A stretch of 64,000 nt of DNA. It comes from Polynucleobacter asymbioticus QLW-P1DMWA-1. GTDB lineage: Bacteria; Pseudomonadota; Gammaproteobacteria; Burkholderiales; Burkholderiaceae. Below are positions 7,495 to 22,523 of the stretch, piece by piece. The stretch is taken from NCBI RefSeq assembly GCF_000016345.1, contig NC_009379.1:558001-622000 (forward strand). The letters are read 5' to 3'. Under the pieces are notes generated by a model. It saw only the letters and a list, made by a program, of their open reading frames with translations, made no database searches and was not told where the DNA came from. Position numbers and translations under genes: made by a program. Each line of letters opens with the position of its first letter. The first letter of the stretch is position 1.

Positions 7495-7530
7495 TGGTGG
7501 GTAGGACGAGATTCGAGCATTCGGCCAACA
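7495..7530 (-). repeat. tRNA-Lys-like 3'-end scar
   Basis: The plus-strand sequence TGGTGGGTAGGACGAGATTC matches the 3' end of tRNA-Lys (22448 onward) with few mismatches, keeps the CCA end and T-loop, and then diverges. A minus-strand hairpin AGCCA...TGGCT with TCTT lies just beyond (about 7464-7488), like a tRNA terminator. The 5' half of the tRNA is missing. Confidence 0.55.
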
Positions 7531-17669: not shown

Positions 17670-17941
17670 CGGCAATTGTTGACGAAGGCCCGCTTCGGGC
17701 CGTTAGTTGCCTTTAGCTATCCATATATGAAATGTCGGTTAACCCGACAGCCGTCGCGTTTAGAGATGCTCAGTCTCTTCCGGCGTAGTCTATCCCCACT
17801 CGAAACGTCCATTAGATCATCTATTCCGTCCATACAGTGGCCAATACATTCCATCCACCAAAAAGAAAAGGGACCACATTTCTGTGATCCCTTTGTATAA
17901 CTGGTGGGTCGGGCGAGATTCGAACTCGCGACCAACGGTGT
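17670..17941. other. Intergenic region ending in duplicated tRNA-Lys tail
   Basis: These 272 bases hold a GGCCCG/CGGGCC hairpin (17687-17701) and a second 6-base-stem hairpin (17733-17749). The 78-base block at 17861-17938 repeats the tRNA-Lys terminator plus 3' end. No gene is seen. Confidence 0.6.
17861..17938 (-). repeat. 78-base direct repeat: tRNA-Lys terminator plus 3' end, truncated copy
   Basis: Identical to 22407-22484 except for three adjacent substitutions in the spacer between terminator and CCA end. Positions 17902-17938 equal the last 37 bases of tRNA-Lys on the minus strand; the match stops inside the anticodon arm. This is the form expected for an attachment-site duplicate left by an element that inserted at the tRNA 3' end. 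No integrase gene lies between the copies. Confidence 0.85.
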
Positions 17942-18139
17942 TTAGGCTGTAAGTTGACGCTGTTTGATGAGTTCTGCAGCAGGGATCCGCACTATCTTGC
18001 CATTAATTGTGGTCACGATTGCGGTATTGGTTTGGATTGCCAAGTCTATCGCTGCTTTTCTAGCACGTTTAATAGCGAAGTAGGAGCCTGATATATCAGG
18101 ATCTGGTGAATTGAGGATATCTGGAGTTGGAATAATCAT
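17942..18139 (-). CDS. Small conserved protein, third gene of the VbhA-like/zeta module
   Basis: The 65-residue protein opens MIIPTPDILNSPDPD and ends with a short beta-rich part (IDLAIQTNTAIVTTINGKIV). It starts 2 bases after the kinase gene stop and so is surely in the same transcript. Its stop codon lies 4 bases from the truncated tRNA-Lys tail, meaning the module runs right up to the repeat. I have no named family. It may be an accessory to, or a second regulator of, the kinase. Confidence 0.65.
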   Translation of the reverse strand: MIIPTPDILNSPDPDISGSYFAIKRARKAAIDLAIQTNTAIVTTINGKIVRIPAAELIKQRQLTA

Positions 18140-18141
18140 TT

Positions 18142-18660
18142 CTAGCCTTGAGCAATCTTTTCTAATTCAGTTAAATCACCATCAAGCAATACCCATGAGT
18201 TTACAGCTTTTTGATACTTTGGGAGATTCTCTAATCCTGCTCGATAGCGCCTACGAATGACTTCTTCAGGAATATTGTGTCCGCCCTGTGCAACTCGCTC
18301 TGCTACTCGAGAGATGGCTAATTCAGGAGAACTTAGGGCAATAAACCAGAGCTTAATTGTGTAGCCCAAGTCTTTCCACTCTTGAATGCGTTGTAGATAA
18401 TGGGTGCCGGATAACGTGGTTTCAAATGCAAAACTTTCACCTGCTTTGGTGTATTCATCCAACTCATTGAGCATCAAGCGAGCCGCCTTGAATGCAACAG
18501 ATTCAGGATTAAATGGTGCCAAACCAGCCGCTATAAGATCAGCATTAATAAAACGAAATGTATGAGCTTCTTGCGGTAAGAAGTTTTTGGCAAAAGTAGT
18601 TTTACCAGCTCCATTAGGTCCTGCAATGATGATAATTTTTTTATTTATTCCGGACATCAT
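18142..18660 (-). CDS. Zeta-toxin-like P-loop kinase
   Basis: The 172-residue protein has Walker A GPNGAGKTT (residues 14-22, Lys20) and the INADLIA segment with Asp41. It also has FAFETTLSG, and the C-terminal basic motif RVAERVAQGGHNIPEEVIRR typical of zeta-toxin/PezT-like kinases. Known zeta toxins phosphorylate UDP-N-acetyl sugars and block cell-wall synthesis; this shorter subgroup may act on another substrate. Its ATG overlaps the stop of the upstream VbhA-like gene (ATGA). No epsilon or PezA antitoxin is present. The kinase fold is certain; toxicity is inferred from family and context. Confidence 0.85.
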   Translation of the reverse strand: MMSGINKKIIIIAGPNGAGKTTFAKNFLPQEAHTFRFINADLIAAGLAPFNPESVAFKAARLMLNELDEYTKAGESFAFETTLSGTHYLQRIQEWKDLGYTIKLWFIALSSPELAISRVAERVAQGGHNIPEEVIRRRYRAGLENLPKYQKAVNSWVLLDGDLTELEKIAQG

Positions 18661-18854
18661 CCGCGTCGTAGCGTGACATAGCGTTGTTTAGTTTCTTCCA
18701 ATATTTGCGCAATACTCTTTTTGCCGGCAACGTAATCAGTGAGGTTTTGCTCTAACTGCTTGGTTGGAACGATGCCTTCAATCCGAGCAGAAGCCACAGC
18801 ATTAGAAACGTTGTATTGGCGGGTTTGAGATTGGGTGGCAAACTTAGTTGGCAT
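18657..18854 (-). CDS. VbhA-like small antitoxin (Fic-inhibitory motif) next to a kinase
   Basis: The 65-residue protein has the antitoxin VbhA pattern: NAVASARIEG then about 15 residues, then YVAGKKSIAQILEETKQRY. Residues 22-27, SARIEG, fit the Fic-inhibition motif (S/T)xxxE(G/N). In known systems VbhA-type proteins block Fic AMP-transferases by inserting this Glu into the ATP site, yet here the partner is a zeta-like kinase and no fic gene is in the window. It is the first gene of the three-gene unit and overlaps the kinase gene by 4 bases. Confidence 0.75.
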   Translation of the reverse strand: MPTKFATQSQTRQYNVSNAVASARIEGIVPTKQLEQNLTDYVAGKKSIAQILEETKQRYVTLRRG

Positions 18855-18871
18855 GTACCTATTTTAGTAGA

Positions 18872-18949: not shown

Positions 18950-18975
18950 AAAAAAGCCCCGCAGAAGCGAGGCTT
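18950..18975 (-). terminator. Minus-strand terminator beside tRNA-tail scar
   Basis: On the minus strand GCCTCGC-TTCT-GCGGGGC followed by TTTTTT. It lies just beyond the tRNA-like 3' end at 18984 and would also end transcription of the D-glycerate dehydrogenase gene. Confidence 0.8.
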
Positions 18976-18983
18976 AGTATTGC

Positions 18984-19013
18984 TGGTGGGTCGGGAGAGA
19001 TTCGAACCTCGCC
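18984..19013 (-). repeat. tRNA-Lys-like 3'-end scar
   Basis: The plus strand TGGTGGGTCGGGAGAGATTC then GAACCTCGCC matches the tRNA-Lys 3' end (22448 onward) except for one substitution and one extra base; the rest of the tRNA is gone. It keeps the CCA end and has its own terminator. Together with 17902 and 22448 it makes three tRNA-Lys-like tails in a row in 4.6 kb. Confidence 0.7.
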
Positions 19014-19030
19014 ATAAGCTACCTAAAAAT

Positions 19031-20011
19031 TTATTTTTTTAAGACCTCAGGATTAATGCAGGTAATTGGAGCTTTTCCATTGAGTACTGCTAAAACGTTA
19101 TCAGTCACGATTTTGCCCATCGCTAGTCTCGTATCAAGGGTAGCAGAGGCGATATGCGGAACAATAACAACATTGTCCAATTGATCAAGTCCCTCAGCCA
19201 GCTTTGGTTCGTCCTCAAAGACGTCAAGTCCAGCACCCCAAATTACCTTATTGCGAAGTGCTTCGACTAATTCTTTCTCGTTTACGAGCGGACCACGCGC
19301 TGCATTAATGAGAATAGCGCTAGGTTTCATTTGGGATAATTCTTTTGCTCCAATGTAGTATTTTGTTTCCGGAGTTAAAGGCAGGTGGATTGAGAGAAAG
19401 TCTGACTCTTTTAGGAGGGTCTCCTTATCCACAAAGGTAGCTCCATGATCTTTCTCAAAATCGAAGTTACGTTGTTCGTTGGTATATATAACCTTCATAT
19501 CAAAAGCCGCTGCTTTTCTAGCAAACATCGTACCAATTCTGCCCAAGCCGGCGATACCGAGAGTTTTGCCGTCCACATCTTGGCCGATAAATGTCATTGG
19601 GGACCAGCCTTTCCATTTACCCTCGCGAACGTAGCGCTCTGATTCTGAAATACGTTTTGCAGTAGCCAACAGGAGAGCCCAAGCATGGGTGGCGGTTGCC
19701 TTATCCAAAACACCGGGGGTATTGGTCATGATGACACCGCGTTTTGTGGCTGCATCTAGATTGAAGTTGTTAAAACCAACAGCGTAGTTGGCGATAATCT
19801 TACATTGCGGCCCTGCTGCATCGAGGATTTCGGCATCAACGTTATCTGTTAATAGGGTGATCACCGCATCACGGCCCTTAACAGCATTCATGAGTTCTTC
19901 GCGAGTTAAAGCGCGATCATGAGGATTAACTTCAACATCACAGGTCTTTCTTAGCTCGGCAATAGTTTGTTCGGGAATACTGCGTGTGATGTATACATTT
20001 GGTTTAGACAT
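19031..20011 (-). CDS. D-glycerate dehydrogenase / glyoxylate-hydroxypyruvate reductase
   Basis: The 326-residue protein belongs to the D-2-hydroxyacid dehydrogenases. The NAD(P)-binding motif GIAGLGRIG is central, and the catalytic Arg (NAARGPLVNE), Glu (DVFEDEP) and His (VPHIASAT) are all present. It reduces glyoxylate or hydroxypyruvate to glycolate or D-glycerate. It sits with a KdgT-type permease and a tartronate-semialdehyde reductase, both of which feed the glycerate pool. A perfect hairpin separates it from kdgT, so it may have its own promoter. Confidence 0.88.
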   Translation of the reverse strand: MSKPNVYITRSIPEQTIAELRKTCDVEVNPHDRALTREELMNAVKGRDAVITLLTDNVDAEILDAAGPQCKIIANYAVGFNNFNLDAATKRGVIMTNTPGVLDKATATHAWALLLATAKRISESERYVREGKWKGWSPMTFIGQDVDGKTLGIAGLGRIGTMFARKAAAFDMKVIYTNEQRNFDFEKDHGATFVDKETLLKESDFLSIHLPLTPETKYYIGAKELSQMKPSAILINAARGPLVNEKELVEALRNKVIWGAGLDVFEDEPKLAEGLDQLDNVVIVPHIASATLDTRLAMGKIVTDNVLAVLNGKAPITCINPEVLKK

Positions 20012-20024
20012 TTCAAATTCCTAA

Positions 20025-20055
20025 TAAAAAAGTGCAAAACAAAATGTTTTGCACT
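20025..20055 (-). terminator. Terminator between kdgT and the dehydrogenase gene
   Basis: A perfect 10-base stem, AGTGCAAAAC / GTTTTGCACT, with a 5-base loop and, on the minus strand, a following TTTTTTATT. It would end the kdgT transcript. Confidence 0.8.
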
Positions 20056-20093
20056 AGATAAAACCACCTTAAAACAGAGGTGACTGCTAAAGC

Positions 20094-21035
20094 TTAATTC
20101 CCACCATTTTTGCGCTTATTTTTATTATAAATAAAGGCAGTCAATAGCGGAGTAAGTACGGCAGTAACAATCACTGATGCGGCAACTTGTACGGTGGCGA
20201 TTGGCGCAATTGCAGCAAAAGTTGGATCTGCTAATGCGACTGCTTGTGGCGTGCCGGTAGCATTACCAGCTGTGCTTGACGCTGCAGCACCAGCAACACC
20301 AGAGCCACCTAATAGGCGGTCAGCTAGGATGCACACAATGCCGGTAAGCACTAATACAGTAATTCCTAAGAGAATACCTGGCAGACCTGCTGTAAGCACC
20401 GCAGAAAGGTTGATGCCTTGTCCAAGCGTGAATGCCATAAATGGAACAATGATTGGCTCATGAGCGCCAAAGAAGTCACGCAAGTCTTTATCTAGGTTTC
20501 CAAGTAATGCACCCGCAAGAATCGGGGCAATTACTGAGAACATGGTCATCCAAGGGATAACGGCTAAACCTGCGCCAACCAATACCAGCATGGTCAGGAA
20601 GGGACCGGTTTCAATACTTTGTGGGACATAAGTGCCCGCATCTTCCTTATTACCAAACGTGCTGGTCAACGCCAAGAACATGCCGCCATTGGTGTCATTC
20701 ATAGCTGCCAATACGGCCAGGGTTGTGAGACCCAAAACATCCCCATTAAAGAAATGAGCAATACCGAGTGCCACTGCAATTGCAATACCCACCTTGGCAA
20801 ACATAATTCCAAAGCCACGCTTAAGCATTGTTGGAGCAGCATTGAGCGTCATTTTTGTACCAACGGTGAAGAGGTACATTGCTAAAAAGGTTGGATAACC
20901 TTGGTTTGTTAGTGCTTGGGTAAAACCTCCAATTTTTAAAGCATTTGGAGCAAATGTATTTAGGAGCATCCCAATAAATAGGGGTACAACCATGATTCCG
21001 CCGGGAACTTTATTAATTGCTTGATAAATTTTCAT
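20094..21035 (-). CDS. 2-keto-3-deoxygluconate permease (KdgT family)
   Basis: The 313-residue membrane protein opens MKIYQAINKVPGGIMVVPLF, the standard KdgT start, and has about ten hydrophobic segments with the family's NDTNGGMFLAL and GTYVPQSIETGP motifs. E. coli KdgT takes up 2-keto-3-deoxygluconate with protons. ATG 21035 is chosen since AAAAGGT stands 5 bases before it and homologues start there; a further 16 codons upstream are open but unlikely. With GarR and the dehydrogenase nearby, its substrate could instead be a small hydroxy-acid; this is not settled by sequence. Confidence 0.85.
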   Translation of the reverse strand: MKIYQAINKVPGGIMVVPLFIGMLLNTFAPNALKIGGFTQALTNQGYPTFLAMYLFTVGTKMTLNAAPTMLKRGFGIMFAKVGIAIAVALGIAHFFNGDVLGLTTLAVLAAMNDTNGGMFLALTSTFGNKEDAGTYVPQSIETGPFLTMLVLVGAGLAVIPWMTMFSVIAPILAGALLGNLDKDLRDFFGAHEPIIVPFMAFTLGQGINLSAVLTAGLPGILLGITVLVLTGIVCILADRLLGGSGVAGAAASSTAGNATGTPQAVALADPTFAAIAPIATVQVAASVIVTAVLTPLLTAFIYNKNKRKNGGN

Positions 21036-21330
21036 GTTTACCTTTTCTGGTGTGATTTGTCTCGGGGTCTCAAAAGAGCCCATTTTTATGTTTTTCTACG
21101 AATACAGTTACGCTTGCAAATTCACTAATCATTAGATCAAGTGATGTCGAAATAATCTATTGATATAGGTCAAAAGTAAGAGAAAACACCTAGAAATTAG
21201 GCAAATCAGCCCTGAGGCGAACTGATATTCTTTTTAATACAATAAAGCTATGGGGGCGCCATAAGCGCTAGCGCCTCAATCAATATTAAAAAACGAGACA
21301 GCGCGCTAATAAAAGATAGGTTAATCACTG
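21036..21330. other. Divergent promoter region kdgT / garR
   Basis: These 295 bases (including the open but probably untranslated stretch before kdgT) separate two divergent genes of one pathway. I see no clear operator or sigma-54 site; a loose TCACT...AGTGA pair lies near 21120-21145. Confidence 0.35.
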
Positions 21331-22230
21331 ATGAGTAAGTTAAAACTAGGTTTTATCGGGTTGGGTATTATGGGCGCCCCTATGGCATCGCACTTAATGG
21401 CCGCTGGCCATGCGCTATTTATTAATACCCGCAGCAAGGTGCCAGAAGAGTTGGCTAATAGCGCCGCTGTTGTTTGCGCAACTCCAGCAGAAGTAGCGAA
21501 AATGGCTGACATTATCTTTACGATGGTGCCTGATACACCAGATGTTGAGAAAGTACTTTTTGGTGAGCATGGAGTTGCTCATGGTTTGTCTAAGGGCAAG
21601 ATTGTTGTTGATATGAGTTCAATCTCTCCAATTGCCACCAAGGATTTTGCAAAAAAGATTAATGCTCTTGGGTGTGAATATCTGGATGCCCCTGTTTCAG
21701 GAGGTCAGGTAGGTGCAAAGGGCGGTACCTTGACCATCATGGTCGGTGGCAAAGAGTCTGTATTCCAGACAGTCAAGCCTATGTTTGATCTGATGGGTAA
21801 AAATATTACTTTGGTTGGTGACAATGGCGCAGGCCAGGTTACTAAAGTAGCCAATCAAATTATTGTTGCACTGAATATTGAGGCTGTAGCCGAGGCCTTG
21901 TTGTTTGCTTCCAAGGCCGGCGCAGATCCTGCTCGAGTTCGTGAGGCCCTGATGGGCGGTTTTGCTAGCTCTAAAATTTTAGAGGTGCATGCTGAGCGCA
22001 TGATCAAGAGAACATTCGATCCTGGTTTTAGGATTGAGTTACATCAAAAGGATTTAAATTTAGCGCTTAATAGTGCAAGAGCTCTGGGAGTTTCTTTACC
22101 TAATACTGCTAATGCTCAAGAATTATTTAATTCCTGTTTGGCATATGGTGGTAAGGCCTGGGATCACTCTGCAATGGTCAAGGCTCTGGAAAAGCTTGCA
22201 AATTTCGAAGTTGGTCAGAAAGCTACCTAA
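21331..22230 (+). CDS. garR: Tartronate-semialdehyde reductase (2-hydroxy-3-oxopropionate reductase)
   Basis: The 299-residue protein is a beta-hydroxyacid dehydrogenase. The N-terminal dinucleotide fold GFIGLGIMGAPMA (residues 7-19), the substrate loop DAPVSGGQVGAKGGTL, and the catalytic Lys in GQVTKVANQ are intact. It reduces tartronate semialdehyde to D-glycerate. Its last 126 bases and terminator are duplicated at 8451-8642. It lies directly beside tRNA-Lys and is divergent from kdgT. Confidence 0.9.
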   Translation: MSKLKLGFIGLGIMGAPMASHLMAAGHALFINTRSKVPEELANSAAVVCATPAEVAKMADIIFTMVPDTPDVEKVLFGEHGVAHGLSKGKIVVDMSSISPIATKDFAKKINALGCEYLDAPVSGGQVGAKGGTLTIMVGGKESVFQTVKPMFDLMGKNITLVGDNGAGQVTKVANQIIVALNIEAVAEALLFASKAGADPARVREALMGGFASSKILEVHAERMIKRTFDPGFRIELHQKDLNLALNSARALGVSLPNTANAQELFNSCLAYGGKAWDHSAMVKALEKLANFEVGQKAT

Positions 22231-22266
22231 AGCAATTCTTTCTATTTAAGAAGTGCATAACGTTAA

Positions 22267-22294
22267 AAAACCTCATCAGAAATGATGAGGTTTT
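22267..22294 (+). terminator. garR terminator
   Basis: AAAACCTCATC-AGAAAT-GATGAGGTTTT, an 11-base perfect stem, 37 bases after the garR stop. A near copy is at 8614-8642. Confidence 0.85.
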
Positions 22295-22406
22295 AATTTG
22301 ACCAAATAGGATTTTTTTACAGATGCGTTGGCGATATTACTGTGCATTCTTAAAAAATACCGATTCTTGGTCGGACCTCACGGTGACTGCCGCATTCCAA
22401 ACAGAC

Positions 22407-22437
22407 AAAAGAAAAGGGACCACATTTCTGTGATCCC
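22407..22437 (-). terminator. tRNA-Lys terminator
   Basis: On the minus strand AGGGATCACAG-AAA-TGTGGTCCCT then TTTCTTTT, 10 bases beyond the CCA end. Part of the 78-base block repeated at 17861-17938. Confidence 0.8.
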
Positions 22438-22447
22438 TCGATATAAC

Positions 22448-22523
22448 TGGTGGGTCGGGCGAGATTCGAACTCGCGACCAACGGATTAAAAGTCCGCTGC
22501 TCTACCGACTGAGCTACCGACCC
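22448..22523 (-). tRNA. tRNA-Lys (UUU)
   Basis: The 76-base minus-strand gene with encoded CCA has a 7-bp acceptor stem GGGTCGG / CCGACCC, anticodon loop CTTTTAA giving anticodon TTT, and a perfect T stem GCGAG / CTCGC around TTCGAAT. Its 3' end plus terminator are duplicated 4.5 kb away at 17861, so it looks like the intact side of an insertion hot spot. Confidence 0.97.

Follow-up and report, generated by a model that had tools for sequence, protein, structure and literature searches.

Three adjacent small genes of Polynucleobacter asymbioticus QLW-P1DMWA-1 probably form a recombinant toxin-antitoxin locus, in which a V gene of the kind found at fic loci has been joined to a K-X gene pair; K-X would be a toxin-antitoxin pair and V a passenger Fic antitoxin. 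They lie in a stretch of 64,000 nucleotides, the window (NC_009379.1, positions 558,001 to 622,000; genome G000 in our set, 2.16 Mb, genus Polynucleobacter). All three open reading frames (ORFs) named in an earlier sequence-only reading of the region are present; they lie on the minus strand:

18657..18854, minus strand: V, VbhA-like antitoxin of 65 aa (ORF; Pfam PF18495, 48.7 bits; PDB 3shg_B, E 0.019; 96.9% DNA identity to V of genome G099)
18142..18660, minus strand: K, P-loop kinase of the zeta superfamily, 172 aa, predicted toxin (ORF; Pfam PF06414, 46.9 bits)
17942..18139, minus strand: X, predicted antitoxin of 65 aa from an undescribed family, usually found downstream of K as its partner (ORF)

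The same reading described a hybrid of a VbhA antitoxin and a zeta-type kinase with an unknown third protein, and this description holds. Its overlapping gene set applies to V and K, where stop and start codon share bases (GGATGATG), but not to K and X, which are separated (TAG, two bases, ATG). By sequence comparison, V is of the fic-locus type, the break falls where the V stop meets the K start, K has X with it whether or not V is present, and tRNA-Lys ends flank the unit. The locus points to what looks like a swap of partners between the Fic and zeta classes of toxin-antitoxin systems, which are unrelated, marked by a scar exact to the base, and to an unnamed small family, X, as the likely antitoxin of widespread short zeta-type kinases.

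The proposed three-gene order was borne out across genomes, with V, K and X together in 19 further places in the genus. Four of these are imperfect: V is a truncated relic in two, V is short in G055, and in G089 K is in pieces and the gene order is disturbed. A stop/start overlap is found in most of the 20 V-K places. The G089 locus (L109), with K in two pieces and the order of V and X disturbed, appears to be a rearranged or duplicated module; in L089 (G055) V is cut short, and in L104 (G035) the V frame continues into the K region. A TAAAAT box lies six bases upstream of the V ATG in the window (18861-18866, minus strand), a possible leaderless start.

A fic start persists in the end of V

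At fic loci of the main group, the final codons of V overlap the fic start, so that the same bases read ...YVTLRRG-stop in the V frame and MSRYDADD... in the fic frame. The corresponding stretch was found by alignment in the window:

18657..18679, minus strand: relic of the fic 5' end inside the V end, 23 bases, ATGTCACGCTACGACGCGGATGA, seven codons and two bases

No fic gene adjoins V in the window; what persists before K amounts to the first seven to eight codons of fic. Among 28 fic-linked V genes, the 23-base stretch is identical in 20, has one to three mismatches in six, and six and seven mismatches in the last two. Among the 20 K-linked places, the window has no mismatch, G132 has one, and the other 18 have at least nine. 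At the V stop codon the window sequence turns to the kinase-locus type: over bases +3 to +40 it agrees at 10/37 with G099 and 8/37 with G003, both fic loci, versus 35/37 with the kinase loci G092 and G095.

The relationships of the genes on the two sides of this break differ. The nine nearest copies of the window V are all fic-linked, the V of G099 being separated from it by a dS of 0.12, and the nearest K-linked V, that of G132, is 89.6% identical at the DNA level. The window K is 99% identical to kinases that stand beside other V genes. G092 has a nearly identical kinase, yet its V differs at 11 of 65 residues, and between this locus and the window dS is 0.45 for V, 0.044 for K and 0.135 for X. 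Because of the scar, the fic-linked nearest relatives and a V dS far above that of K and X, it is likely that a fic-locus V replaced the earlier V of the window once K-X had reached its present form, or that K-X was put behind such a V.

Older V-K joints with other V ends also occur, of the G092, G040 and G024 types. On the best tree, V-K pairing requires six label changes (four to seven in bootstrap replicates); a single clade was not rejected (AU test, p 0.093), so we claim no number of swaps.

V belongs to the Fic antitoxins

The description of V as a VbhA-like protein with the motif SARIEG was confirmed. V matches the Pfam VbhA model over the whole profile, well above the cut-off of 25.9 bits, and its best, if weak, sequence match in the PDB is VbhA itself. 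S22, E26 and G27 of SARIEG fit the inhibitory motif (S/T)xxxE(G/N) given in PMC3667792. PADLOC returned no credible match for V (best E 0.016), for K (best E 0.0003, to the P-loop part) or for X (none).

Of 186 Polynucleobacter genomes, 44 have PF18495 matches, at 52 places in all, and 109 have Fic (PF02661). With two truncated copies found before K, 54 V places were examined, and the neighbour of V was fic or a fic fragment in 28 (25 by Fic motif, three by reading a truncated or contig-edge fic), K in 20 and neither in six. The sequence-only reading had taken a fic gene consistently adjacent in relatives as a point against itself; fic does stand by V in these 28 places, but not where K is. 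Some of the adjoining fic genes are broken (G002, G028). Two orphan V loci (L077 and L078, in G043 and G108) keep the fic start and have lost the rest of fic, and both genomes also hold a V-K-X module.

In 379 genomes of the order, PF18495 was matched in 19, of which 12 exceeded the cut-off and nine of these lay outside the genus. The stretches fetched around V in these nine genomes held a Fic-motif ORF in six, neither gene in three and a K-like ORF in none. Likewise, no V was found beside K in the K loci from outside the genus, in a search with one V sequence that would miss a very distant V. The neighbour counts, together with the lack of a K-like ORF by V outside the genus, indicate that V is primarily a Fic antitoxin.

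K and X as a predicted toxin-antitoxin pair

K scores more than twice the cut-off of the Pfam Zeta_toxin family (22.3 bits) and contains the Walker A motif GPNGAGKTT, in agreement with the sequence-only reading. It has the zeta fold, and zeta, PezT and AvrRxo1, all toxins, are among its best fold matches. K20, T21 and D41 are invariant in 41 aligned kinases (alignment A2, 41 rows); their equivalence to K46, T47 and D67, the zeta residues named in PMC4938570, is judged by motif only. K was found in 34 of 186 Polynucleobacter genomes, at 37 places, weak or fragmentary matches in G151 and G083 lying outside the examined set. At 11 of the 37 places K occurs with X and without V, and at two of these 11 (G117, G127) the K frame is incomplete or interrupted. 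In G143 and G145, V is cut to 49 residues and carries a Glu26-to-Gln change, while K and X are open; the two V relics are identical and may reflect one event.

Across bacteria, an X-like ORF (called by an iterated profile at E < 0.01) was found in 42 of 52 K loci, and directly after K in 40. Of these 40, 25 come from the 37 loci outside the Polynucleobacter-type set, which by record name include Oxalobacteraceae, Aromatoleum, Ferrovum, Myxococcota, Nitrospirae, Chloroflexi and many Bacteroidetes, with several metagenome bins. X-like ORFs apart from K are few: one after a second K fragment (L047), others after a broken or overlapping K (L018, L045, L110), two in L126 and one weak match in L026. 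Judged by these loci, K usually has X as its partner, whether V is there or not.

Across 33 members (alignment A1, 33 rows, a subset of the X-like ORFs found), X had no credible match to a Pfam or NCBIfam family. Of 1300 candidates in a profile search, 678 proteins were related to X at E 0.001 or better; none of 120 listed relatives had a Pfam domain, and their usable names were hypothetical or uncharacterized. The structural model of X (pLDDT 90) places a beta hairpin between a long first helix and a second one. Against the PDB the model matched nothing at E 0.001 or better (best E 0.68), and the X profile gave 59 scattered matches to solved structures at E up to 1, the best at 0.029 and none credible. 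Among 120 listed relatives of K, none exceeds 219 aa, and the X frame differs from the K frame in the loci with offsets worked through; judged by frame and length alone, no ready K-X fusion was apparent.

Taken together, K-X is best read as a predicted reverse-order toxin-antitoxin pair of the zeta type whose antitoxin family is undescribed. If this prediction holds, many orphan kinases annotated as zeta toxin family would gain a partner.

Selection on V, K and X

Over 16 V-K genomes, the median dN/dS was 0.228 for V, 0.052 for K and 0.076 for X (16 of the 20 V-K places, excluding the relics of G143 and G145, G055 and G089). When V was compared by neighbour, with four K-linked V (the two relics, G055 and G035) and six divergent fic-linked V excluded, dN/dS of fic-linked V was 0.093 (22 places). 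The best-conserved region of K-linked V is the inhibitory helix, with a pN/pS of 0.16 versus 0.29, 0.43 and 0.64 elsewhere; at fic loci the same stretch has a pN/pS of 0.02 (G000, G132, G035, the two relics, G108k and six divergent fic-linked V were excluded from the regional values). I25, E26 and G27 are unchanged in 18/18 K-linked V other than the two relics. This constraint on the helix is expected if V still inhibits Fic, and V is probably still anti-Fic. The simplest reading of these ratios is that K depends on X, and that selection on V to keep its original Fic binding is weak or intermittent.

tRNA-Lys repeats border the modules

The locus lies between copies of a tRNA-Lys gene end, and an intact tRNA-Lys gene lies further upstream of V:

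18984..19007, minus strand: tRNA-Lys 3'-end fragment, upstream border before V (pattern match with 0 mismatches, alignment), followed by a terminator at 18954-18975
17902..17940, minus strand: tRNA-Lys(TTT) 3'-end fragment directly after the X stop, downstream border (mismatch-free pattern match; aligned to the real tRNA-Lys)
22448..22523, minus strand: intact tRNA-Lys (anticodon TTT) with the repeat unit as its 3' end (ARAGORN; repeat at 22448-22471)

The pattern searched was the 24-base 3' end of tRNA-Lys(TTT) with one position free. At 0 mismatches it has three copies in the window, all on the minus strand, against a mean of 0.00 in 100 shuffles, and it occurs in 159 of 186 Polynucleobacter genomes in one to nine copies each, including the intact tRNA. 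A terminator-like site follows the downstream fragment (17867-17894). A further stretch resembling a tRNA 3' end, with three mismatches to the repeat, lies at 7495-7518 of the window. The 3.5 kb separating the intact tRNA-Lys from the first 3' fragment (18984-22523) seem to be a separate metabolic insert at the same tRNA, with genes for a 2-hydroxyacid dehydrogenase, a KdgT permease and a dehydrogenase of the 6PGDH/hydroxyisobutyrate type.

At up to four mismatches, the repeat was found 139-154 bases before the V frame in nine of 20 K-linked V and 935-938 bases after the V start in 13 of 20; at fic-linked V, it lies 836-839 bases after the V start in 15 of 28. Both sides carry repeats in 8/20 K-linked and 9/28 fic-linked V. 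The other V loci lack a recognised repeat on one side or both, in part through the end of a stretch or contig; no tRNA-Lys border was seen at some of them, among these the K-linked G024 and G098 and the divergent fic group. Because the same repeats, where found, recur at near-fixed distances, V-K-X (~1.08 kb) and V-Fic (~0.98 kb) look like exchangeable cassettes between them. Recombination between cassettes that have V and the tRNA-Lys repeats in common would then be a likely route for the swap.

In L126 (G046:C7:500-6000), five tRNA-Lys 3' repeats stand in a row, and separate intervals hold a fragment resembling X, an orphan V of divergent sequence and an orphan X with an open frame, as if toxin-antitoxin parts were shuffled singly. 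Short tyrosine recombinases (PF00589, ~190 aa) lie by a K-X locus (L012:3398-3973) and by an orphan V (L068:2448-3014), and are candidates for moving the cassettes. The six integrase hits of the window's genome all lie outside the window.

How the locus may work

In the arrangement that we favour, K would phosphorylate a cell component and so stop growth. X, translated directly behind K from the shared mRNA through translational coupling, would bind and silence K. V would have no action on K; its Glu26-bearing helix would instead obstruct the ATP site of an incoming VbhT-like Fic.

A bolder version, which we put forward only tentatively, is a cassette with two powers. K-X would be addictive, and V would permit the overwriting of a rival V-Fic module, guarding the host from leftover Fic when the cassette displaces V-Fic at the same tRNA-Lys site. 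If true, toxin-antitoxin cassettes would compete for the tRNA site through theft of one another's antitoxins, and X would be the founder of a new family of antitoxins to zeta-type kinases, spread over several phyla. If the K-X prediction holds, anti-addiction by a captured antitoxin is a directly testable idea.

It is unlikely that K-X is instead a small kinase of nucleic acids or metabolites together with its regulatory subunit. The best Pfam family of K is the zeta toxin, and toxins are among its best fold matches; moreover, the patchy occurrence of K and the tRNA-repeat borders in common with Fic modules are toxin-antitoxin-like.

More doubtful still is the view that V is a mere expression leader, whose promoter and coupled stop codon drive K translation while the V protein is idle. 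The V stop does overlap the K start, V is relaxed at K loci, and the TAAAAT box recurs in most of 15 aligned fic and kinase loci. However, promoter-like sites are no more common in the region than in shuffles (3 versus 2.5), the 11 K-X places manage without V, and a leader would have no need of the conserved inhibitory helix and its fixed I25-E26-G27.

The least probable reading is the one first proposed, in which the anti-Fic helix has been re-used to enter the ATP site of K, making V the antitoxin and X an accessory: V does stand beside K in 20 places, mostly with a stop/start overlap, keeps E26 and G27 and is under some constraint there, but in the window its 96.9% DNA identity to a fic-linked V leaves no sign of remodelling for the kinase, K-X occurs without V or with a decayed V in 11 and two places, respectively, K is nearly unchanged beside the different V of G092, V at K loci is less constrained than K, X or fic-linked V, and in the loci searched outside the genus V was not found by K, which is followed across phyla by X.

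Comparison with known systems

Searches of titles and abstract openings, mostly outside subscription papers, covered VbhA with zeta, VbhA with Fic, COG4185, gene order, partner and antitoxin swapping, Polynucleobacter toxin-antitoxin systems and the predicted ABC-type ATPase; within this scope, neither the V-K pairing nor X was described. One paper lists VbhA and zeta toxin families within one genome.

Like VbhA/VbhT (FicTA), the locus has an antitoxin gene that meets the VbhA model, carries the inhibitory motif and, in 28 of 54 places in the genus, stands by fic; unlike FicTA, the window keeps just the first fic codons, followed by a kinase and X. Compared with epsilon/zeta and PezA/PezT, the window lacks a recognised epsilon or PezA, the upstream gene being VbhA-like by Pfam; its kinase is short at 172 aa, and the partner X is downstream, with no credible Pfam or solved-structure sequence match.

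A precedent for the gene order is AvrRxo1:Arc1, a zeta-fold toxin with its antitoxin downstream (PMC4938570), as X follows K in the window. The same source describes Arc1 as three to four short helices with the motif KExFD(x25-27)(Y/L)ExxYY. X differs in being modelled as helix-hairpin-helix, and the motif was not found by eye in the 33-member X alignment.

For the flanks, the nearest parallel is in freshwater Methylophilaceae, where additive genomic islands have recurring repeats of a tRNA-Lys gene end (PMC10872708). The insert in the window is likewise flanked by direct repeats of the tRNA-Lys 3' end. The tRNA-Lys there is ctt, whereas in the window it is ttt, and, in contrast to those islands, the unit in the window appears to be a single toxin-antitoxin module of 1.0-1.1 kb.
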